A DNA stretch of 9,053 nt from an uncultured Collinsella sp. GTDB lineage: Bacteria > Actinomycetota > Coriobacteriia > Coriobacteriales > Coriobacteriaceae. This document shows, piece by piece, positions 1 to 9,053 of the stretch. Position 1 is the first letter of the stretch; each line of letters opens with the position of its first letter. The stretch is from the NCBI GenBank assembly GCA_900556515.1, contig USPH01000038.1:1-9053 (forward strand), written 5' to 3'. Made by a program: the position numbers and the translations under genes. The notes under the pieces are model-generated. The model saw nothing but the letters and a program-made list of their open reading frames with translations, was not told the DNA's origin and ran no database searches.

Positions 1-31
1 GTCGGCAGCGTCAGATGTGTATAAGAGACAG
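1..31 (+). other. Nextera sequencing adapter with Tn5 mosaic end (non-genomic)
   Basis: The first 31 bases match the Illumina Nextera read-1 transposase adapter, lacking only its first two bases. Bases 13-31 are the 19-bp Tn5 mosaic end (AGATGTGTATAAGAGACAG). Genomic sequence therefore starts at about base 32. This is library adapter left on an assembled contig, not a natural Tn5 insertion: no transposon sequence follows, and the adapter-specific part precedes the mosaic end. Any reading frame using these bases is spurious. Confidence 0.97.
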
Positions 32-351
32 GTCACCATGTCGGTCACAGGCCCGCTAGTGCCCTGTGGCTGCGCATTGATAACCAGGGTTGCGACAATG
101 GCAATGAGCGCGATGGCACCTACGACGCCGGCGGCAATACCGCGTCGAATCAGCTTTTTGCGTCGACGTTCGGCACGTTTTGCCTTGAGCTTGGCGTATG
201 CCTCTTCATCGGAAATCTCGGCCGCATCGTTCGCGCGTCCGTTCTGCTTATCGGCATGTACGTTTGTAATCAGAGGAATCGTTTCGGTGACATCTTCGGG
301 CATGTGCTCGGAATCATCGGGGTCCGGGGTGATTGTGGGGACATTCGACAT
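32..351 (-). CDS. Single-pass membrane protein, N-terminal part only (3' end lost at contig end)
   Basis: 106 complete codons are visible from ATG at 351, and the frame is still open where adapter sequence begins. A good Shine-Dalgarno (AAAGGAG, complement of 357-363) lies 5 bases before the ATG, after TATA-rich sequence. Residues 1-50 are acidic and Pro/Thr-rich. Residues 53-70 are very basic (KLKAKRAERRRKKLIRR). Residues 71-92 form a clear hydrophobic segment (GIAAGVVGAIALIAIVATLV), followed by a short Gln/Pro/Gly/Thr-rich stretch. The positive-inside rule puts the N terminus in the cytoplasm and the missing C-terminal domain outside the cell. The part that would define the function is lost. 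A membrane-anchored adaptor of the HlyD/MacA type, in which such a tail and single anchor precede the extracellular domain, is one guess. I do not recognise the family with confidence. It lies 132 bases downstream of the L,D-transpeptidase stop on the same strand, with hairpins between. Confidence 0.7.
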
Positions 352-385
352 AGCGTCTCCTTTATAGAAAGTACCTCGATAAGTA

Positions 386-415
386 TATGCGCCCACCGGT
401 TGGGGCGGGCGCATA
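386..415 (-). terminator. Hairpin between L,D-transpeptidase gene and downstream membrane gene
   Basis: A perfect 9-bp inverted repeat (TATGCGCCC at 386-394, GGGCGCATA at 407-415) extends by two more G-C pairs after one mismatch, leaving a 6-base loop. It lies between the transpeptidase stop and the next start. On the minus strand it is followed by TACTTATCG, a weak U-tract, so it could be a poor terminator or an mRNA-stabilising structure. The stem is clear; the function is inferred. Confidence 0.45.
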
Positions 416-429
416 GGACGATTTCTTTC

Positions 430-458
430 GGAACTGTTAGATAGGATTCGGCAGTTCC
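430..458 (-). other. Second hairpin downstream of the L,D-transpeptidase gene
   Basis: GGAACTG at 430-436 pairs with CAGTTCC at 452-458, a 7-bp perfect stem with a 15-base loop, 25 bases past the transpeptidase stop. On the minus strand the following bases are GAAAGAAATC, with no U-run. It is therefore not a standard intrinsic terminator by itself. With the hairpin at 386-415 it may form the 3' end structure of the transpeptidase mRNA. Confidence 0.35.
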
Positions 459-483
459 ACGTTATTTGATGCCGCGCGTTGCA

Positions 484-2217
484 CTACGAGTGGACAACCA
501 CACACAGGCCGACTTTGATGCAGTCGTGAAGTGCCTTGGCGTCTGCCAGGCGCAGGTTGATGCAACCGTGGCTGCCGCACCACTTGTACGACTCGGCGTT
601 ATCGAAGCTCTTGTCGTTTTGCCAGGTGGCGTCGTGGAAGCCGATCATGTTGCCCTCAAACGGCATCCAGTAGCTCACCGGGCTCTCATATTTGGGTTTA
701 CCGGTCTCGGGGTCCTTGGCTCCGATCAGGGTGCTGCCGCCGTCGTTGCTGTTGATTTGCCACACACCCTCGGGGGTGGCGTCTTCGCCCGGTTTGCCGG
801 AAATAAAGTTGGCCTCCCACACGATATTGCCGCTCTCGTCATAGTAGCGCGCGTGCTGCTCGGACAGGTCGACGTCGATATACGCCTTCCAGTCGGGCTC
901 TCCCTTTGCGGTAAAGGTGTTGGCCTTCTGGGAGTACTTGATCTCGATCTCGCCGGTCTGCTTGTTGTTAATGGCGTCCTCGACCTGCTTGGCGAGCGAG
1001 CTGCTGTCGATGGACCAACCAAAGTCGCCGCCTTCGACGGCGCACTGCTTGCCATCGGCGCGCGTCCACCAACGAGTGGAGCCCACGGTATTAAAGCCGT
1101 TGGCGAGTTCGGCTGCCCAGCTGCTGATCTGCGACGTATCGAGCGTGGGGTTGGCCGGATCGGCAAAGCAGATCCACTGCAACACGGAGCTGCCATCAAC
1201 CTTGCCGGCATCCTCGCCGTTGAGCTTGAGGGTCACGTTGACGCCCAGGAAGTTGTTGGCGGCATCGCATGCGGCCTGAATCTGATCATCGGTCAGCGTT
1301 CCATTAAGCGGCTCATAGGCATCGTTGCCGAGCTTGGAAAGATCTACGGTCTCGGTCAGCGAGGCAAGCTCGAGCTCGGCGTACTTAATGACATGCTCGC
1401 GGTTGAGCTTTTCGTTGGAGCGCGCCTTCTCGACGGTAAACTTGCCGGCCTGCTCGTCATAGGAGCTATTGGCCTCGAACGTGCCCGAACGGCCCTCGTT
1501 AAACTCGTCGATGGCGGCGCCCAGATCCTCCTCAAACTGCTTTTGGTCAAAGGTGTCGGAGAGCATGGACAGGTCGACGTCTTGATCAAGATCGACTTCG
1601 TTGGGGGTGGCGGTTGTTTTGGTCTTGCCGCTTAAGGATTCCACAAGGCGGACCGGCCATACAAAGGCTTCGTTGTGGCTGATGATTTCTTTTGCGGCAG
1701 CTTCGCCGTCGACGATGGGCTCATCGGACTCGGGCTGATAGGTCCAGCTAAAGTCATCGCCTGTCACGGCGAGCTTATAGTGCTTCCATGCCGAATTGAC
1801 CTTGGTGGCGGCAGACGAAGCGTTGGAGAACGAGACGTCGACGCCGGCGATGGTGGTGTTGGGGTAGGCTACCTGCGAAAACGCTACGACGCCTACTATA
1901 TAGACAATGACGATTAGGCCCAGGACGACAAATAACGTCGTCTTTTTGCCCGACTTATTGTTCTCGGCGGGTTTGCGCGCGGGGCCGCGATCGCCTCGAG
2001 CGTGCGTGGGGGGCTGCTTGGGCGCATTGCCGTTTGCCTGGCGCCGCTGACGTTGTTGACGCTGCTGTCGCTGTTGGTTCGGGTGTTGGGAAGCGTTTGC
2101 TGCACTACGCTGCTGACCGTGGCTCGGCGCGATAGGACGCGGCGACTGAACGCCGCCGGTGTGCCTGCTCGGCTGCTGCGGATCGGGAATCAGTTGAGTT
2201 CGATCGTTTTGCGACAT
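484..2217 (-). CDS. Membrane-anchored L,D-transpeptidase (YkuD domain) with peptidoglycan-binding region
   Basis: 577 aa, ending in TAG. YkuD-family enzymes form 3-3 peptide cross-links in peptidoglycan, or attach substrates to it, through a catalytic cysteine outside the membrane. Here the C-terminal domain (about 455-577) has the signature SHGCINL, with the catalytic pair His550 and Cys552, and the upstream active-site histidine is in FHDATW (His528). Order: residues 1-90 are Gln/Pro/Arg-rich cytoplasmic tail, with a Q/R run near 48-60; about 95-115 is the membrane anchor (TLFVVLGLIVIVYIVGVVAF); about 120-440 resembles the PG_binding_4 type region that precedes YkuD in Gram-positive enzymes (AGVDVSFSNASSAATKV). 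Start choice: ATGs occur at 2226 and 2217. The only Shine-Dalgarno (AAGGA, 2228-2232) is 10 bases from 2217 but 1 base from 2226, so 2217 is preferred; the longer form would add MHT. It is preceded by its own promoter candidate. Family assignment is secure; the exact cross-linking role is inferred. Confidence 0.93.
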   Translation of the reverse strand: MSQNDRTQLIPDPQQPSRHTGGVQSPRPIAPSHGQQRSAANASQHPNQQRQQRQQRQRRQANGNAPKQPPTHARGDRGPARKPAENNKSGKKTTLFVVLGLIVIVYIVGVVAFSQVAYPNTTIAGVDVSFSNASSAATKVNSAWKHYKLAVTGDDFSWTYQPESDEPIVDGEAAAKEIISHNEAFVWPVRLVESLSGKTKTTATPNEVDLDQDVDLSMLSDTFDQKQFEEDLGAAIDEFNEGRSGTFEANSSYDEQAGKFTVEKARSNEKLNREHVIKYAELELASLTETVDLSKLGNDAYEPLNGTLTDDQIQAACDAANNFLGVNVTLKLNGEDAGKVDGSSVLQWICFADPANPTLDTSQISSWAAELANGFNTVGSTRWWTRADGKQCAVEGGDFGWSIDSSSLAKQVEDAINNKQTGEIEIKYSQKANTFTAKGEPDWKAYIDVDLSEQHARYYDESGNIVWEANFISGKPGEDATPEGVWQINSNDGGSTLIGAKDPETGKPKYESPVSYWMPFEGNMIGFHDATWQNDKSFDNAESYKWCGSHGCINLRLADAKALHDCIKVGLCVVVHS

Positions 2218-2227
2218 CGTATGCATA

Positions 2228-2232
2228 TCCTT
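2228..2232 (-). promoter_or_regulatory. Ribosome binding site deciding the L,D-transpeptidase start
   Basis: AAGGA on the minus strand, 10 bases before the ATG at 2217 and a single base before the alternative ATG at 2226. Spacing favours the inner start, though 10 bases is at the long end. Confidence 0.6.
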
Positions 2233-2274
2233 CGATTTTCGCCTTGCGGTTCATCGTGTTTTTACTGGGCTTGC

Positions 2275-2280
2275 ATTATA
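2275..2280 (-). promoter_or_regulatory. Candidate -10 box for the L,D-transpeptidase gene
   Basis: A perfect TATAAT on the minus strand, 57 bases upstream of the chosen start. The hexamer 17 bases further upstream (2298-2303, ACCACA) matches the -35 consensus at only three of six positions, so this would be a promoter with a good -10 and poor -35. A perfect consensus -10 in otherwise GC-rich DNA, just upstream of a gene, makes it credible. Confidence 0.5.
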
Positions 2281-2329
2281 GCGATTGCCCTACTGTTTGT
2301 GGTACGGAAACGGTGGCATTCGAAAGAGC

Positions 2330-2345
2330 TGGGACAAATGTCCCA
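2330..2345. promoter_or_regulatory. 16-bp palindrome TGGGACAAATGTCCCA (possible operator or hairpin)
   Basis: Perfect 7-bp arms (TGGGACA/TGTCCCA) around an AA centre, between the serine dehydratase stop (2367) and the transpeptidase -10 box (2275-2280). As DNA it resembles a dimeric regulator site about 50 bases upstream of the -10. As RNA on the minus strand it would be a 6-bp stem with an ATTT loop followed by GCTCTTTC, a possible weak terminator of the upstream gene. Sequence alone does not choose. Confidence 0.4.
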
Positions 2346-2366
2346 CTATCGAGTCGTTCAGGGTCA

Positions 2367-2831
2367 CTACCCGCACACACCGCATTTTGCACAGGCCGAA
2401 AGTGCGGCCGGAGCCTGCGCGATGCCGCCCTTTGCCGTCTCGCGCAGCGTTGCCGGCAACGCGTGACCCACCGAGAGCATGACATGTGCCATCTGGTCAA
2501 ACGGCACCAGGCTCTTAATGCCTGCGAGGGCGAGTTGTGCCGAGCTAAAGGCCGCTGCCACGCCGATGGCGTTGCGGTTTTGGCAGGGCACTTCCACGAG
2601 GCCACCGACGGGGTCACAAACGAGACCCAGCAGGTTACTTAGCGCGATGGAGCTGGCGTCGAGCGCCTGCTCGGGCGTGCCGCCGAGCATCTGCACCAGC
2701 GCGGCGGCTGCCATGGCGGCGGCGCTTCCGACTTCGGCCTGGCAGCCGCCCTCGGCGCCGGCAACGCAGGCGCTTGTGGTGAGGTTGAGGCCGATGGCGG
2801 CTGCGCAGTAGAGCGCGTCCATGACCTGTTC
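2367..2831 (-). pseudogene. sdaA: 3' fragment of iron-sulfur L-serine dehydratase (alpha domain), fused in frame to tig
   Basis: Residues ~299-452 of the chimeric frame match the C-terminal half of the alpha domain of 4Fe-4S L-serine dehydratase, which converts L-serine to pyruvate and ammonia. Clear landmarks are GAEGGCQAEVGSA (323-335), LVCDPVGGLVEVPCQNRNAIG (368-388) and the C-terminal SVGHALPATLRETAKGG (418-434). Cys328, Cys370 and Cys381 have spacings 42 and 11, the same as the three cluster-binding cysteines known in the Legionella enzyme (343, 385, 396). The N-terminal beta domain and first half of the alpha domain are missing, so this piece cannot be an active dehydratase alone. The protein ends in a Cys-rich tail (CAKCGVCG). 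The left boundary is approximate, because trigger factor and dehydratase similarity blur over residues 290-300. Confidence 0.85.
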
Positions 2832-3725
2832 GTCGTCGAGCTGCAGGCGCTCGGCGAGAGCGGAGACGCAACGGTTCTCCTTCTCGGCCGGGAGGCGGGA
2901 AGCCTTGTCCTGCTCGATCTCGATCTTGATGGCGTCGCGCATAGCGTCGATGCTGTCGAAGCCAAAGTCGGACTTGACGAGCTCGTCGGTGAGCTCGGGG
3001 GTGTTGCGGACCTTGATGCCCTTGACGGTGACCTCGACGGTGTGGGTCTCGGCCTCCTCGCCCTCCTCGACCTCGTCGGTCCAGGTGACGGTCTTGACGT
3101 CGTCAACGTTAGCGCCGATCAGGGCCTCGTTGAACTCCTTGGGGTTGCTGTCGCTACCGGCGATGAGCATGCGGCCCTCGGCGGCAAAGTTGTCGGCGTT
3201 CTCGACGGCCTTGAGGTCGACGGTGACGTAGTCCTCGGCCTCGACGGCGCGACCCTCGACGTCCTCGAAGGTGGCGCGGTAGTTGAGGAGCATCTCGACC
3301 TGGTTGTTGATCTCGGACTCGGTGACCTCCGCAGGGGGCATCTCGATCTCGACGGCGTCGAAGGAGGAGAGCTCAGCGGCGGGACGCAGGGAGAACTCGA
3401 CGGTGTAGGTGTAGTCCTCGTGATCCTTGGCGAGGTCGAGCTCCTTGTAGTCACCGCTCTTGGTAGGGACGATGTCCAGCTCGTTGAGGACGGCGGGCTC
3501 GTTGGCGGCGATCAGGTCGTTGGTGGCCTGAGCGAGGGTAGCCTCGGCGCCAAGTGCGGAGTCGATGACCGGACGGGGGGCCTTACCGGCGCGGAAGCCC
3601 GGGAAGCGGTACTTCTTGGCGGTGTCCTTGTAGGCCTTCTTGATCGCGGCGTCGACGTCGGCGGCCGGGATGGTGACCGTAGCGGTGAGCTTGGCGTCCT
3701 TGACGTCAGAAGCGGTGATGTTCAA
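2367..3725 (-). CDS. tig: Chimeric reading frame: trigger factor N-terminal and PPIase domains fused to serine dehydratase C-terminus
   Basis: 452 aa, no stop or frameshift at the join. Residues 1-~295 are trigger factor, the ribosome-bound chaperone and prolyl isomerase. The ribosome-docking signature GFRAGKAP is at 43-50; the FKBP-like PPIase region is about 160-240 (EDYVTVDLKAV... VEVTVKGIKVR); the C-terminal chaperone domain only begins (LTDELVKSDFGFDSIDAMRDAI, 245-266) and breaks off near SALAERL (288-294). From about 299 the protein is the end of L-serine dehydratase. A normal trigger factor has about 430-450 aa with an arm-forming C-terminal domain, absent here. Start: TTG at 3725, chosen because AGGAGG (3732-3737) lies 6 bases upstream; the ATG at 3740 lies upstream of that site, and the frame further upstream runs through the tRNA. 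tRNA-Leu precedes it by 90 bases. The clpP and clpX genes that often follow tig are absent. The chimera is probably a misjoin or deletion; each half's identity is firm. Confidence 0.85.
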   Translation of the reverse strand: MNITASDVKDAKLTATVTIPAADVDAAIKKAYKDTAKKYRFPGFRAGKAPRPVIDSALGAEATLAQATNDLIAANEPAVLNELDIVPTKSGDYKELDLAKDHEDYTYTVEFSLRPAAELSSFDAVEIEMPPAEVTESEINNQVEMLLNYRATFEDVEGRAVEAEDYVTVDLKAVENADNFAAEGRMLIAGSDSNPKEFNEALIGANVDDVKTVTWTDEVEEGEEAETHTVEVTVKGIKVRNTPELTDELVKSDFGFDSIDAMRDAIKIEIEQDKASRLPAEKENRCVSALAERLQLDDEQVMDALYCAAAIGLNLTTSACVAGAEGGCQAEVGSAAAMAAAALVQMLGGTPEQALDASSIALSNLLGLVCDPVGGLVEVPCQNRNAIGVAAAFSSAQLALAGIKSLVPFDQMAHVMLSVGHALPATLRETAKGGIAQAPAALSACAKCGVCG

Positions 3726-3731
3726 CACGTT

Positions 3732-3737
3732 CCTCCT
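3732..3737 (-). promoter_or_regulatory. Strong ribosome binding site fixing a TTG start for tig
   Basis: A perfect AGGAGG, 6 bases before TTG at 3725 and 3 bases before GTG at 3728. The ATG at 3740 overlaps this motif's upstream side and so cannot use it. TTG gives an N terminus MNITASDVKDAKLTATV, in register with the usual trigger factor start. Confidence 0.7.
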
Positions 3738-3782
3738 CATACTGCCCAGCTTATCTGAGGTGCTGGTACCTTTATGCAACAA

Positions 3783-3807
3783 GCGTCGCGAGGGCATAAG
3801 CCGACGC
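3783..3807 (-). terminator. Weak hairpin just after tRNA-Leu
   Basis: GCGTCG and CGACGC form a 6-bp stem with a 13-base loop that contains a further GGC-TTAT-GCC pairing, followed on the minus strand by TTGTTG. It starts 9 bases past the tRNA 3' end and may end or process the tRNA transcript before tig. The U-tract is poor. Confidence 0.25.
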
Positions 3808-3815
3808 GGGTGCGT

Positions 3816-3899
3816 TGGTGCGGGCGAAAGGACTCGAACCTTCACGGGAATCCCACCAGAACCTAAATCTGGCGCGTCTACCAATTCCGCCACGCCCGC
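3816..3899 (-). tRNA. tRNA-Leu (anticodon UAG), CCA encoded
   Basis: 84 bases including an encoded CCA end. The acceptor stem is GCGGGCG (3893-3899) paired with CGCCCGC (3820-3826), discriminator A. The anticodon stem CCAGA/TCTGG encloses loop TTTAGGT, giving anticodon UAG, which reads CUN leucine codons. The long variable arm with stem GGG-ATT-CCC is typical of class II leucine tRNAs, and the T loop is TTCGAGT. It is transcribed towards tig. Confidence 0.97.
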
Positions 3900-3918
3900 A
3901 TGAGCGCACAGACTAGGA

Positions 3919-3927
3919 ATGATAGCA
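3919..3927 (-). promoter_or_regulatory. Extended -10 promoter candidate for tRNA-Leu
   Basis: TGCTATCAT on the minus strand fits an extended -10 element (TGn + TATCAT), ending 19 bases before the tRNA 5' end, as expected for a stable RNA gene with a short leader. The hexamer 17 bases upstream is not a recognisable -35. Confidence 0.45.
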
Positions 3928-3985
3928 GATACGAACGGCAAGCGCACGCACACCTTTTACAAGCTCACGACCTCACCACGAGTGC

Positions 3986-4010
3986 AAAAGGCGGGACGAG
4001 TTGCCCCGCC
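3986..4010 (-). terminator. Intrinsic terminator of the molybdenum hydroxylase operon
   Basis: On the minus strand GGCGGGGC pairs with GTCCCGCC (8 bp, one G-U pair) around loop AACTC, followed directly by TTTT. It lies 29 bases past the TAA of the Mo/Fe-S subunit gene and separates this operon from tRNA-Leu. Confidence 0.85.
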
Positions 4011-4039
4011 CCGCCAATTACGACTTGTTCGCTGACCTG

Positions 4040-6871
4040 TTACTCCCCCAGCAGGGCCTTCTCGGGCGTGATCGGCAGCGAGCGAACCTGATGTCCGGTA
4101 GCGTGTGCCACGGCCGAGGCAACGGCGGCGAGCGGCGTGTTGATGACGACCTCGCCGATCGACTTGGCACCAAACGGACCCGTCGGCTCGTAGCTCGGCT
4201 CAAAGGCCACGCGGATGCTGCCGATATCCAGGCGCGTGGGCAGCTTGTAGCTCATAAAGTTGCCGGTGCGCAGACGGCCGCGCTCATCGTGCTCGACGAT
4301 CTCGTAGAGCGCATGGCCGATACCCTGGGCAATGCCGCCCTCGGCCTGGACGCGCGCGAGCGCCTCGTTGATCACGGTGCCGCAGTCGACGGCCGCCGCA
4401 TAGTCCACCACGGTCACCTTGCCGGTAGCCTTGTCGACCTCGACCTCGGCAATGCCGGCCATAAACGGCGGGGGCGAAACGGGCAGGCAGGCAGAGGCAT
4501 GCGAGGTGAGCGCGTCGCCGCCCGCAATGTTCTTAACGCACAGGTTGGCAAAGTCGCGCAGCGTGAGGTAGCGGTTCTGCTCGCGCGCGGCACGTTCGTC
4601 GGACAGGCGCACGTACTGGCCATCGAAGACCACATCGGCAGCGTCCACGTCCCACATCTGGGCGGCCTTGGCGCAGATCTTCTCACGCAGCTCGGTCGCG
4701 GCGTTCTTGGCGGCAAGGCCCGTCACGTACGTGCCCGAGCTCGCGTACGAGCCGGCATCGAACGGCGACACGTCGGTGTCCACGCCGAGCACCACGATCA
4801 GCGAACTCTCCACGCCCAGCTCCTCGGCGGCAATCTGCGCCAGGATCGTGTCGACGCCCATGCCGTTATCGGTGGCGCCGGTGCCGATGGTAATGAAGCC
4901 ATCCTCTTCCAGGCGCATGTCGATGCCGGCGATGTCCACGTTGGAGATGCCCGAGCCCTGCATGGTGAGCGCGCAGCCCAGGGCGCGCACGCGGTCGCCC
5001 AGGTCGACGGCCAGCGGCTTATCGCGCCAGCCGATCATGTCCATCGCACGCAGCAGGCAGCGGTCGAGCGCGCAGGCGTTGAGCTTCTCGTTGTAGTACT
5101 GCGGCATGATCTCGCCCTCGCGCACAATGTTCTTAAGGCGCAGGTCGGCGGGGTCCATGTGCAGCATGTCGGCGAGCTCGTTGACGGCGCTCTCCACGGC
5201 AAACTGGCCCTGGGTGGCACCGTAGCCGCGATACGCGCCGCCGCGGTTGGTGTTGGTGTAGACGGCGTCCCAGCTAAAGCGGCTCGCCTTCACATGGTTG
5301 TAGATGGGCAGGCTCTTGTGGCCCGAAAGGCCGATCGTCGTGGTAGCGTGCTCGCCGTACGCGCCGGCGTTGGACAGCGTGTGCAGATCGATGGCCGTGA
5401 TGGTGCCGTCGTTCATGGCGCCCAGCTTAACGGTCATCTGCATCTGGTGGCGCGAGTTGCCCGCGGTGATGGTCTCCTCGCGGGTGTAGCAGCAGTAGCT
5501 CGGACGGCCGGTCTGCTGGGTAACGAATGCCACGAAAATCTCGCAGCAGCCCGTCTGCTTGGAGCCAAAGCCGCCGCCGATGCGCGGCTTAATGACCTGC
5601 ACCTGCGACTGCGGAATGTCGAGCGACTGCGCGACCATGCGGCGCACGTGGAAGGGCACCTGCGTAGAGGTGGTCACCGAAATACGCCCGAACGCGTCGG
5701 TCGTCGCGAAGGCGCGAAAGGTCTCCATGGGTGCGGTCTGCGTGGCCTGGCTGGTGTAAGTGCGGGTAAAGACAATGTCGCTCTGGGCGAACGCCTCGTC
5801 AAGGTTGCCAAAATCGCTGGTACCGCTGCACACCAGGTTGCGGGACACGTCGCCGCCCTGCGGGAACATAAAGGTCACGTCGCCCTCGGGGTGGACCACG
5901 ATGTCGTTATCGAGCGCCTGGGTAAAGTCGAGCAGCGGCTCGAGCACCTCGTAGTCGACCTTGATGAGCTTGAGTGCCTTGTCGGCGGCCTCCTCGGTCT
6001 CGGCGGCGACAATCGCCACCTCCTCGTTTTGGTAGCGCACGAGGTTCTCGAGAATCAGGCGGTCGTAGGGACTCGGCTGCGGATAGCTCTGGCCGGCGAT
6101 GGTAAAGCGGCGCTTGGGCACGTCCTCGTAAGTGTAAACGCCCACCACGCCGGGCACCTTCAGGGCACGCGACGTATCGATGGAGCGGATCTTGGCGCGG
6201 GCATAGGGACTGCGCTTGAGCTTGACGATGAGCGCGCCGGCGGGCACCATGTCGCCCGTGTAGACGGGACGACCCTCGAGCAGGGCCTTCGAGTCCTTCT
6301 TGGGCTGCTTGTGAGTGATCTGCTTGTAGGAGACGCCGTCGCAGCTGGTGTCGTTGACCGGCAGCTCGGGCATCTCGAAGCCCACCTGCACGCCGGACTC
6401 GTTGAGAAAGCGAACGATGGCGCGCAGCTGGCTCTCGTAGCCGCTGCAACGGCAGAGGTTGCCGGCGAGCTGGCGCGAGAGCTCCTCGCGCGTGGCGACG
6501 AGGCTCGGGTCCTCCTTGGCGGCACGGGCGAGCGCCAGCACGTTCATGATGAGGCCGGGAGCGCAAAAACCACACTGCTCGGCGCCTTCGGCAGCCATTG
6601 CGCGGGCGAGCGCCTCCGACTCGGCCTTGAGGCCCTCGAGCGTAGTGATGGAGCGGCCCTCGACGCGCGCGGCGGGAACCGAGCAGCTCAGCACCGGGTC
6701 GCCGTCGAGCCACACTGTGCACAGGCCGCAGTTGGTAGTCTCGCAGGCGCAGCGCACCGACGCGCAGCCCTGCTCGCGCAGCAGCGCAAAGAGCATGGTA
6801 TCGGGGGCAATCTGAACCTTGACCTTACGGCCGTTGAGCGTAAAGGAAAGATCGATGAGTTTGGCAGCCAT
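4040..6871 (-). CDS. Molybdopterin-dependent hydroxylase, fused 2Fe-2S and Mo-binding subunit (xanthine dehydrogenase family)
   Basis: 943 aa, intact, ATG to TAA. It belongs to the xanthine dehydrogenase/aldehyde oxidase family, which hydroxylates an aromatic heterocycle or aldehyde at a Mo-pterin centre and passes electrons through two 2Fe-2S clusters to FAD. N-terminal ferredoxin-like domain: Cys43, Cys48, Cys51, Cys63 (C-x4-C-x2-C-x11-C). Second, helical 2Fe-2S domain: Cys100, Cys103, Cys140, Cys142 (CGFC and CRC). From ~190 come the Mo-binding domains: QTAPMETF (378-385), RIGGGFGSK (430-438), GAYRGYGATQ (545-554), and GAKSIGEV with the likely catalytic base Glu907. Fusing the Fe-S and Mo parts while keeping FAD separate is a subtype seen in anaerobic gut bacteria, often annotated Mo/Fe-S-binding subunit. 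Its ATG overlaps the FAD subunit stop by one base (TAATG), so the two are translationally coupled, with GAGG upstream. Substrate is unknown; purines such as xanthine are plausible, and some relatives depend on selenium as a cofactor. No in-frame UGA is involved. Confidence 0.93.
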   Translation of the reverse strand: MAAKLIDLSFTLNGRKVKVQIAPDTMLFALLREQGCASVRCACETTNCGLCTVWLDGDPVLSCSVPAARVEGRSITTLEGLKAESEALARAMAAEGAEQCGFCAPGLIMNVLALARAAKEDPSLVATREELSRQLAGNLCRCSGYESQLRAIVRFLNESGVQVGFEMPELPVNDTSCDGVSYKQITHKQPKKDSKALLEGRPVYTGDMVPAGALIVKLKRSPYARAKIRSIDTSRALKVPGVVGVYTYEDVPKRRFTIAGQSYPQPSPYDRLILENLVRYQNEEVAIVAAETEEAADKALKLIKVDYEVLEPLLDFTQALDNDIVVHPEGDVTFMFPQGGDVSRNLVCSGTSDFGNLDEAFAQSDIVFTRTYTSQATQTAPMETFRAFATTDAFGRISVTTSTQVPFHVRRMVAQSLDIPQSQVQVIKPRIGGGFGSKQTGCCEIFVAFVTQQTGRPSYCCYTREETITAGNSRHQMQMTVKLGAMNDGTITAIDLHTLSNAGAYGEHATTTIGLSGHKSLPIYNHVKASRFSWDAVYTNTNRGGAYRGYGATQGQFAVESAVNELADMLHMDPADLRLKNIVREGEIMPQYYNEKLNACALDRCLLRAMDMIGWRDKPLAVDLGDRVRALGCALTMQGSGISNVDIAGIDMRLEEDGFITIGTGATDNGMGVDTILAQIAAEELGVESSLIVVLGVDTDVSPFDAGSYASSGTYVTGLAAKNAATELREKICAKAAQMWDVDAADVVFDGQYVRLSDERAAREQNRYLTLRDFANLCVKNIAGGDALTSHASACLPVSPPPFMAGIAEVEVDKATGKVTVVDYAAAVDCGTVINEALARVQAEGGIAQGIGHALYEIVEHDERGRLRTGNFMSYKLPTRLDIGSIRVAFEPSYEPTGPFGAKSIGEVVINTPLAAVASAVAHATGHQVRSLPITPEKALLGE

Positions 6872-7785
6872 TAGCGCACCTCGCTAGAATCGACGCCGGG
6901 CACGCGGCGGCAGGAATACTCGTCCGTGGCAAACTTGGGGACCTGCACGGTCTCGAGCTCGCGGGCAAGCGCGGCCGAAAGCTCGATGCCGGCGGCGCGG
7001 CGCACGGCCTGCACGGCAAGCGGGGCCGAGATGCGGCGGCGGTAGGCGGCCGAGCCCCACAGGTTGGTGCCGTAGCTCAGGGCGCGCACAGAAGCGGCCA
7101 GAGCGCGAAGCTCGTCCTCGGAAGGCTGCTCGGCAGTAAGGCCGCATGCCTCGCCCTGCAGCAGGGTCGCGCGCAGCGGGCGGGCGCCCACGGTGACATG
7201 CCAGCTGTTGTTCCACCAGGCGGCAGTGACGTTTAAGGAGGGGAAGTCGGTCGCGGCCTTGCGCACGGCCTCGTAGCTCGCACGGTAGTCGTGCTTAACG
7301 ACTACGATGTGCTCGATCACGTCGCGCACGTAACCCATGTCCACGAACTCCGCAAGCGGCACGCGGCCGGCGCCCGTCAACTCAACATAGGAATCGAGCG
7401 CGAGAAAGGCGGAGAGAACGTCCGAGAAGCCAAAGCGGCCGTAGATGCTGCCACCCACCGTGGCGGTGTTGCGCAGCTGCACGCCCACGATATCGTGGAC
7501 GGCAAACTCAAAGACATGGTTGACAAGCGCGTTGAGCCCAGTATGGCGCTCGAGCTGGCGCAGCGTGCACGTGGCACCGATGCGAAACTCGGTCTCGGTC
7601 TCCTCGATCTGATCGAGTCCGCAGGCCGAAAGGTCAATCGCCGTCGCCACGCGACGCGAACCCAGGCGCATCCAGATGCCGCCTCCCACAATCTTGTTGT
7701 TGCGGTTCTTCTGTAAGAGCTCATAGGCTTCGGCCGCGTTTCCAACACGGACGTAGGTACCGAACTTGAGCACGTTCTCCCCCAT
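6871..7785 (-). CDS. FAD-binding subunit of molybdenum hydroxylase
   Basis: 304 aa, near the usual 280-300 for the FAD subunits XdhB/CoxM. It accepts electrons from the 2Fe-2S clusters of its partner and hands them to NAD+ or another acceptor. FAD-binding motifs are VGGGIWMRLG (33-42) and TVGGSIYGRFGFSD (109-122), the latter matching the TVGGN-x-SD pattern of the family. The C-terminal domain (about 190-290, including the YRRR stretch) resembles the CO dehydrogenase flavoprotein C-terminal fold. It is first in the operon and overlaps the Mo/Fe-S gene by one base. The start is uncertain: ATG at 7785 has only a weak purine-rich site (GAAGAG) directly before it, while GTG at 7773, four codons in, follows GGGGGAG with 3 bases spacing. 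I keep the ATG. Like its partner, it gives no direct clue to the substrate. Confidence 0.92.
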   Translation of the reverse strand: MGENVLKFGTYVRVGNAAEAYELLQKNRNNKIVGGGIWMRLGSRRVATAIDLSACGLDQIEETETEFRIGATCTLRQLERHTGLNALVNHVFEFAVHDIVGVQLRNTATVGGSIYGRFGFSDVLSAFLALDSYVELTGAGRVPLAEFVDMGYVRDVIEHIVVVKHDYRASYEAVRKAATDFPSLNVTAAWWNNSWHVTVGARPLRATLLQGEACGLTAEQPSEDELRALAASVRALSYGTNLWGSAAYRRRISAPLAVQAVRRAAGIELSAALARELETVQVPKFATDEYSCRRVPGVDSSEVR

Positions 7786-7809
7786 CTCTTCACTTGTCCA
7801 GTACTTTTA

Positions 7810-7818
7810 AGTGTACCA
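7810..7818 (-). promoter_or_regulatory. Candidate extended -10 promoter of the hydroxylase operon
   Basis: TGGTACACT on the minus strand is an extended -10 (TGn + TACACT), 24 bases upstream of the FAD subunit ATG, giving a leader of about 15-18 bases. The -35 position (7833-7838, ACGGTG) is poor. The inverted repeat at 7865-7939 lies 46 bases further upstream. Confidence 0.35.
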
Positions 7819-7864
7819 AACGAGGGGCCGCACACCGTTTTAGGACAAAATCCACCCACCCATC

Positions 7865-7939
7865 CATAACTTGCGGTGATATACGGACTGATTAGCCGTT
7901 CTGGGACGCTTAACAGTCCGTATATCACCGCAAGTTATG
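7865..7939. repeat. Perfect 26-bp inverted repeat (75-bp extragenic palindrome)
   Basis: Arms at 7865-7890 and 7914-7939 are exact reverse complements over 26 bases (arm begins CATAACTTGCGGTGATATAC), around a 23-base centre in which AGC and GCT can also pair. It lies between the gdhA terminator and the hydroxylase promoter candidate. Neither strand has a U-run after the stem, so it is not an ordinary terminator. The arms are more AT-rich than the flanks. It could be a dispersed extragenic palindrome, a tiny non-coding mobile element, a processing site, or a large operator. Confidence 0.9.
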
Positions 7940-7950
7940 AGGAGTCCTCC

Positions 7951-7989
7951 GGAATAGAAAAGGCTCCCAGCCGGAATGGCTGGGAGCCT
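7951..7989 (-). terminator. Strong intrinsic terminator of gdhA
   Basis: A perfect 12-bp stem (AGGCTCCCAGCC and its complement, 7961-7972 and 7978-7989) with a 5-base loop, followed on the minus strand by TTTTCTATT. It starts 26 bases past the gdhA stop and isolates gdhA from the hydroxylase operon. Confidence 0.93.
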
Positions 7990-8015
7990 CATCACATGCT
8001 ATTTCGAGCGAAGAT

Positions 8016-9053
8016 TTAGCAGACGCCCTGAGCGAGCATGGCGTCGGCGACCTTCAGGAAGCCGGCAATGTTGGCACCCATGACGAAGTTGCCCTCCTCG
8101 CCGTACTCCTTGGCGGTGTCGTCCACGTTGTGGAACATGCCGCGCATGAGCTGCTCGAGCTTGCCGTCGACCTCCTCGAAGGTCCAGGACAGGTGCTCAG
8201 CATTCTGGCTCATCTCCAGGCCGGACACGAGCACGCCGCCGGCGTTGGCAGCCTTACCAGGCATAAAGGCGACGCCGTTCTCCTGGAAGTAGGTCGTGGC
8301 CTCGATGGTCGTGGGCATGTTCGCTCCCTCGCCGACCACCTTGCAGCCGTTGGCGACGAGCGCCTGGGCGTCCTCGAGCAGCAGCGTGTTCTCGCGAGCG
8401 CAAGGCAGTGCGATATCGCAGGGCAGCTGCCACACGCCGCGGCCGTCGCCCTCGTGCCACACGGCGTTAGGCTTCTCGTCAACGTACATGGCGAGCGTAA
8501 CGCCCTTGTCGTGGCCGGAGCGCTTCTTGTTGTAGACGTGCTCGAGCACGGTGTAGTCGATGCCGTCGGGATCCTCGACCCAGCCGTGGGTGTCGGAGCA
8601 GGCCAGCACCTTGCCGCCGAGCTGGGAAACCTTCTGGACGGCGTAGATAGCGACGTTGCCGGAGCCGTGCACGACGACGTTCTTGCCCTCGAAGGAGTCG
8701 CCGCGGCTCTTGAGGTACTCGTCCACAAAGTAGGCCAGACCGTAGCCGGTGGCCTCGGTACGGGCGAGCGAGCCGCCAAAGGAGAGGCCCTTGCCGGTGA
8801 GGACGCCGGTCCACTCGTTGGTCAGGCGCTTGTACTGACCAAACAGGTAGGCAACCTCGCGGCCGCCAACGCCCAGGTCGCCGGCAGGAACGTCGGTGTT
8901 GGGGCCGATGTGGCGATAGAGCTCGGTCATGAAGGACTGGCAGAAGTGCATGATCTCGTTGTTGGACTTGCCCTTGGGGTCAAAGTCGGAGCCGCCCTTG
9001 CCGCCGCCCATGGGAAGGGTGGTCAGGCTGTTCTTAAGGATCTGCTCCAGACC
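8016..9053 (-). CDS. gdhA: Glutamate dehydrogenase, hexameric NADP-type, 5' end outside the window
   Basis: 345 codons visible, open to the window edge and ending in TAA. Family members have about 445-450 aa, so roughly 100 N-terminal residues are missing. The enzyme interconverts 2-oxoglutarate plus ammonia and glutamate in the cytosol, mainly for ammonia assimilation. The visible part opens at GLEQILKNSLTTLPMGGGKG, the substrate-binding region with its conserved lysine, then SDFDPKGKS, TGKGLSFGGSLARTEATGYG, the Rossmann dinucleotide-binding motif VHGSGNVA (128-135), CDIALPCARENTL, GEGANMPTT and the C-terminal PGKAANAGGVLVSGLEMSQN. These are characteristic of the E. coli-type hexameric enzyme; NADP preference is inferred from family resemblance. 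The methionine at 9011 is internal, not the start. A strong terminator follows the stop. Confidence 0.97.
   Translation of the reverse strand, partial: GLEQILKNSLTTLPMGGGKGGSDFDPKGKSNNEIMHFCQSFMTELYRHIGPNTDVPAGDLGVGGREVAYLFGQYKRLTNEWTGVLTGKGLSFGGSLARTEATGYGLAYFVDEYLKSRGDSFEGKNVVVHGSGNVAIYAVQKVSQLGGKVLACSDTHGWVEDPDGIDYTVLEHVYNKKRSGHDKGVTLAMYVDEKPNAVWHEGDGRGVWQLPCDIALPCARENTLLLEDAQALVANGCKVVGEGANMPTTIEATTYFQENGVAFMPGKAANAGGVLVSGLEMSQNAEHLSWTFEEVDGKLEQLMRGMFHNVDDTAKEYGEEGNFVMGANIAGFLKVADAMLAQGVC

Follow-up and report, generated by a model that had tools for sequence, protein, structure and literature searches.

Trigger factor, a protein-folding chaperone encoded by tig, is represented in protein family databases by the curated profile TIGR00115 and the Pfam domains PF05697 and PF05698, and the iron-sulfur L-serine dehydratase, a serine-degrading enzyme encoded by sdaA, by TIGR00718/00719 and PF03313/PF03315. 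Besides these two protein families, the chimeric contigs of short-read metagenome assembly are the closest described counterpart of the locus analysed here. A benchmark of short-read assemblers counted chimeric contigs per genome and gave values of 22.15 for megahit and 2.63 for SPAdes with a mock community (PMC11261854). Chimeric reads that form in library preparation, when single strands sharing microhomology mis-anneal, are described in a second paper (PMC8674242).

The window, i.e. the whole 9053-base stretch of DNA that was analysed, contains the following features.

1..31, no strand assigned: untrimmed sequencing adapter (in all 19 sdaA loci the match starts at 31 or 35)
32..2832, minus strand: sdaA-locus segment, with the last part of sdaA, a gene for a YkuD L,D-transpeptidase and, truncated at the contig end, the beginning of another gene
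2367..3740, minus strand: chimeric ORF of 457 aa, joining the N-terminal two thirds of trigger factor to the C-terminal part of L-serine dehydratase
2833..2849, minus strand: the join, a 17-bp stretch, CGCCTGCAGCTCGACGA, which fits both tig and sdaA in the same reading frame
2850..9053, minus strand: tig-locus segment, with the 5' part of tig, a tRNA-Leu, molybdopterin dehydrogenase genes and glutamate dehydrogenase (on the basis of BLAST and Pfam)
3816-3899: the tRNA-Leu, within the tig-locus segment

The chimeric ORF runs from an ATG at 3740 to a TAG at 2367-2369. Its first ~302 residues are those of trigger factor and its last ~155 those of L-serine dehydratase, with the switch from one to the other at residues 298-303 of 457 (window 2849-2833). 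A preliminary description of this DNA had reported an in-frame trigger factor/L-serine dehydratase chimera at 2367..3725; the chimera is real in the letters, both proteins being recognized by Pfam and NCBIfam, and the stop end of the frame was correctly placed, but its ATG lies five codons upstream of 3725. The strand, which is the minus strand, was absent from that description. In Pfam, whose residue numbers count from a 452-aa start and not from the 457-aa start, the N-terminal ribosome-binding domain Trigger_N (PF05697, profile 1-144 of 144, E 9.5e-31) covers residues 1-146 and SDH_alpha covers residues 288-436, corresponding to profile positions 111-260 of 260. The NCBIfam matches extend over positions 2-291 of 410 of the tig profile and positions 126-278 of 300 of sda_alpha.

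The ORF resembles trigger factor in that its residues 1-302 are of an ordinary C. aerofaciens type and in that it exceeds the TIGR00115 cut-off (201 vs 180.2 bits), so that it would be annotated as trigger factor. Unlike trigger factor, it ends at profile position 291 of 410, and PF05698 (Trigger_C), the C-terminal chaperone domain, was not found in it by Pfam. The likeness to the dehydratase lies in the 97-99% identity of query residues 286-452 to the SdaA of 19 Collinsella sdaA loci and in three cysteine positions. These cysteines (C333, C375 and C386) show the dehydratase spacing that had been claimed for them, 42 and 11, and fall in the part aligned with the L-serine dehydratase 4rqo (4rqo 329-470); we take them to be the cluster ligands of the enzyme. 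Unlike the dehydratase, the ORF has no beta part (PF03315 was not found by Pfam), its SDH_alpha is incomplete, positions 1-110 of 260 being missing, and its score stays under the TIGR00718 cut-off (193.4 vs 243.2). Neither protein is therefore complete in the fusion, as the preliminary description had stated. The trigger factor C-terminal domain and ~380 of 535 dehydratase residues are missing from the predicted 457-aa protein, which would probably not work as an enzyme and would not be a full chaperone either.

The two parts of the window belong to two different loci. A contig scan with the fusion as query gave 43 loci, 24 with tig (including L020, L021, L022 and L024, which are outside Collinsella by their titles) and 19 with sdaA, and none of the 43 was matched on both sides of the join. 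When the whole window was compared with these loci by BLAST, with matches shorter than 60 bases or above E 1e-10 discarded, all 19 sdaA loci matched it from 31 or 35 up to 2861 or 2870 only, and all 24 tig loci only from 2833 on, to 9053. Each of the 19 sdaA loci aligns collinearly with the sdaA-locus segment in one piece, at 82-96%, and its gene order is kept in L029; the tig-locus segment matches the 24 tig loci and 0 of 19 sdaA loci. Right up to the join, the DNA of each half is ordinary for its locus. Both halves derive from one species group, with 95-96% identity to the nearest genomes, so there is no species conflict that would prove an artefact; the nearest genomes of the two halves have similar identity and a different order, which does not decide between a same-strain and a two-strain origin.

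In related genomes, tig and sdaA are found intact and apart. The 401-base join region was matched in all 43 genomes of the genus, and none of these 43 spans the join, the matches beyond the stretch on both sides being weak and shorter than 50 bases. Among the 22 genomes that we call C. aerofaciens-like, defined by a match to the sdaA half at at least 82% over most of its length, the tig half, compared over window 2850-7850, is present in 22 and the sdaA half is matched in 22, and the two sides of the join region lie at separate places in 21; G014 is without 478 bases next to the join in the sdaA half and gave no sdaA match in the join-region search. Six C. aerofaciens-like genomes carry tig and sdaA on a single contig (G001, G002, G005, G006, G011 and G025), and in all six the genes are 158-177 kb apart on opposite strands. 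Among the more distant members of the genus, nine have a contig with both genes; tig and sdaA share a strand in five of these (G016, G018, G020, G026 and G041) and lie on opposite strands in four (G019, G024, G038 and G039). This variation in orientation across the genus points to rearrangements between the loci over longer times. Complete copies of the two genes were found in L014, where tig is complete (TIGR00115 positions 2-410) and followed by ORFs that, judged by eye, resemble ClpP and ClpX, and in L029, where SdaA has both its beta and alpha parts and sdaA adjoins a 580-aa ORF like the L,D-transpeptidase gene of the window.

The join itself was compared base by base with the 19 sdaA loci and with those 20 of the tig loci that are from Collinsella. 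Position 2850 is tig-like, agreeing with 20 of 20 tig copies and 0 of 19 sdaA copies, and positions 2828-2832 each match 0 of 20 tig copies. Inside CGCCTGCAGCTCGACGA the copies vary; position 2848, for example, is matched by 6 of 19 sdaA copies. Of 65 family genomes, 16 contain the exact 17-mer, at 19 places in all, and these places, assigned to one gene or the other by comparison with the join-region match coordinates, correspond to 14 tig and 5 sdaA sites. Three genomes (G001, G003 and G008) have it at both tig and sdaA, with the copies on opposite strands in G001. Given that the exact 17-mer is present at sdaA in only five genomes and that the sdaA copies vary within it, the shared stretch in the source strain may have been shorter than 17 bp. 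A rough estimate from base composition gives ~1 shared 17-mer expected between tig and a 2.3-Mb genome, and the shared stretch is thus not remarkable. At the join trigger factor has the peptide ALAERLQLDE and SdaA has ALADRLQLDDE, read in one common frame, just as the preliminary description had guessed when it supposed that the two genes encode a similar peptide at this point. Since the join lies inside a stretch that both genes read in a common frame, an open frame results with no need for selection.

Protein databases were searched for further occurrences of the join. A whole-fusion search of 5.8 billion proteins, in which scoring was applied to the 7998 candidates with the most words in common, yielded 7963 matches, and among the best 120 of these the only full match was P0001, which is the window's own protein, with one member on one 9053-base contig. 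In the junction-region search, P0001 was again the only protein among the best 120 of 173 matches to cover the region whole. Of 295 proteins compared, 124 match trigger factor and 172 match SdaA, with P0001 alone matching both; these searches for a second member of the fusion reach close relatives only.

The tig-sdaA contig is very probably a misjoin, between two ordinary genes of the gut bacterium Collinsella, that arose during library amplification or assembly and was not made in a living cell, and the chimeric ORF is probably not a new protein. What is directly observed is that two loci meet at a shared stretch in a common frame, with no second copy among the matches listed; the step at which the join arose is our inference. 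A misjoin at a short shared GC-rich stretch had been the first choice of the preliminary description, and it is the best supported reading, given the 17 bp at both sites in three genomes, the separate places of tig and sdaA in relatives and the lack of a second protein with the join among the listed matches. In the mechanism that we consider most likely, a strand or contig end that finished in the tig copy of CGCCTGCAGCTCGACGA would have continued on the sdaA copy. This could have happened through an incomplete strand annealing to the sdaA copy during library amplification or through an overlap-based contig join between the tig and sdaA copies, two routes between which we make no choice. The smallest k of common de Bruijn assemblers is larger than 17 bp; a plain collapse of k-mers would therefore be insufficient, and the join would require either that strands were switched during amplification or that contigs were joined by overlap. 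With the stretch read as (E/D)RLQLD in a common frame by both genes, the product is open and resembles a designed fusion. In its abrupt switch between two loci at a short shared stretch, its restriction to one contig and its leftover adapter, the window is like the chimeric contigs of short-read metagenomes, from which it differs in that its join, lying in frame inside two genes, can be taken for a protein fusion. The window shows how two genes that read a short stretch in one frame can make a misjoin look like a genuine fusion protein.

The alternative that survives best, although unlikely, is a real inversion of ~158-177 kb between inverted copies of the shared stretch, which would have broken both genes in one strain or in a few cells. 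The opposite strands of tig and sdaA in the six one-contig C. aerofaciens-like genomes provide the geometry that gives this junction, and the exact 17-mer stands at both sites in three genomes. Inversions at short repeats are, moreover, documented in Salmonella, in a study that verified spontaneous rearrangements, including five of seven tested inversions, with a cut-off for inversions of at least 12 bp of microhomology at the junction; its authors argue that this much microhomology is rare in chimeras formed by random ligation (PMC3411829). These findings make a real inversion conceivable here. It would, however, entail the loss of tig and sdaA both at once, all 43 genomes of the genus lack the junction, and the matches listed contain no further protein that carries the join. 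The reciprocal product, sdaA-N/tig-C, was likewise absent from the best 120 of 2794 matches obtained with a joined query, for which 7999 candidates were scored, a search that reaches close relatives only. Quite improbable is the specific case of a C. aerofaciens strain in which ~160 kb were inverted between 17-bp inverted copies, swapping the C-terminal parts in frame and producing two reciprocal fusion proteins; if true, it would represent reciprocal in-frame fusion through very short repeats.

Deletion of the DNA between tig and sdaA, with an in-frame fusion as its result, was the second choice of the preliminary description and is very improbable. Although a direct-repeat deletion would give an in-frame join at a short shared stretch, and the two genes share a strand in five of the nine less closely related genomes, the C. 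aerofaciens-like genomes nearest to the window, at 95-96% identity, have them on opposite strands (6 of 6), an arrangement from which a deletion cannot give a head-to-tail fusion and an inversion can. Deletion is therefore disfavoured by gene orientation in the close relatives, though not in every distant genome of the genus. Least probable is a functional chaperone-dehydratase fusion kept by selection, for, despite a frame without stops and the retained conserved cysteines, the fusion lacks Trigger_C, the beta part of SDH and positions 1-110 of 260 of SDH_alpha, each half has DNA that is typical of its locus up to the join, and the matches listed, which cover close relatives only, include no second member of such a fusion family.

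Fusions of trigger factor with other unrelated Pfam domains were also seen, with P0004, P0008, P0013, P0038 and P0048 among the best 120 of 7963 matches and P0290, P0294 and P0295 among the best 120 of 173. Each of these eight is on one contig, which suggests that one-off joins occur around tig; P0004 and P0008 represent 2 and 8 clustered sequences, which means that some of the fusions are more than single observations. The proteins inspected (17 and 22 in number) were chosen for odd domains or lengths, and their counts accordingly give no unbiased rate. In P0048, the end of the dehydrogenase gene that neighbours tig upstream is placed behind the start of tig, and the window's own dehydrogenase gene and tig share 11 bp at the point of this join (P0048 being known here as a protein). 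In P0012 and P0013, the trigger factor sequence breaks off at residue 300, close to the switch point in the window, and is followed by other partners; false joins may often arise at the GC-rich ERLQ stretch. Among the SdaA fusions, P0151 and P0154 come from contigs of different length and carry an identical foreign tail at an identical point (GGLIGG), so that one join can recur.

The first 31 bases of the window are presumably the end of a Nextera-type read adapter, and a 19-base piece of it is present in 0 of the 43 loci. They give rise to false peptides, with LSLIHI followed by a stop on the minus strand and SAASDVYKRQ also appearing in translations, and the LSLIHI peptide also ends P0007. 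An adapter at the start of the contig indicates that reads were assembled without full trimming, which lowers trust in the contig and by itself does not concern the join.

Two further observations concern the tig-locus segment. Between the dehydrogenase FAD gene and glutamate dehydrogenase lies a near-perfect palindrome of 75 bp (window 7865-7939), with arms of 32 nt that are 94% complementary and a predicted RNA fold of -51.7 kcal/mol (z -12.2). A 23-base piece of it is present in 8 of the 43 loci, several tig loci are gapped at this place, and weaker copies occur 12-14 kb away in L001 and L009; it looks like a small mobile hairpin element. The molybdopterin dehydrogenase genes occupy window 4040-7785. 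In the 943-aa protein encoded there, Pfam shows the 2Fe-2S domains preceding the molybdopterin-binding part in a single fused chain, and the FAD-binding subunit is separate; the dehydrogenase proteins score under the NCBIfam cut-offs of the named enzymes listed.
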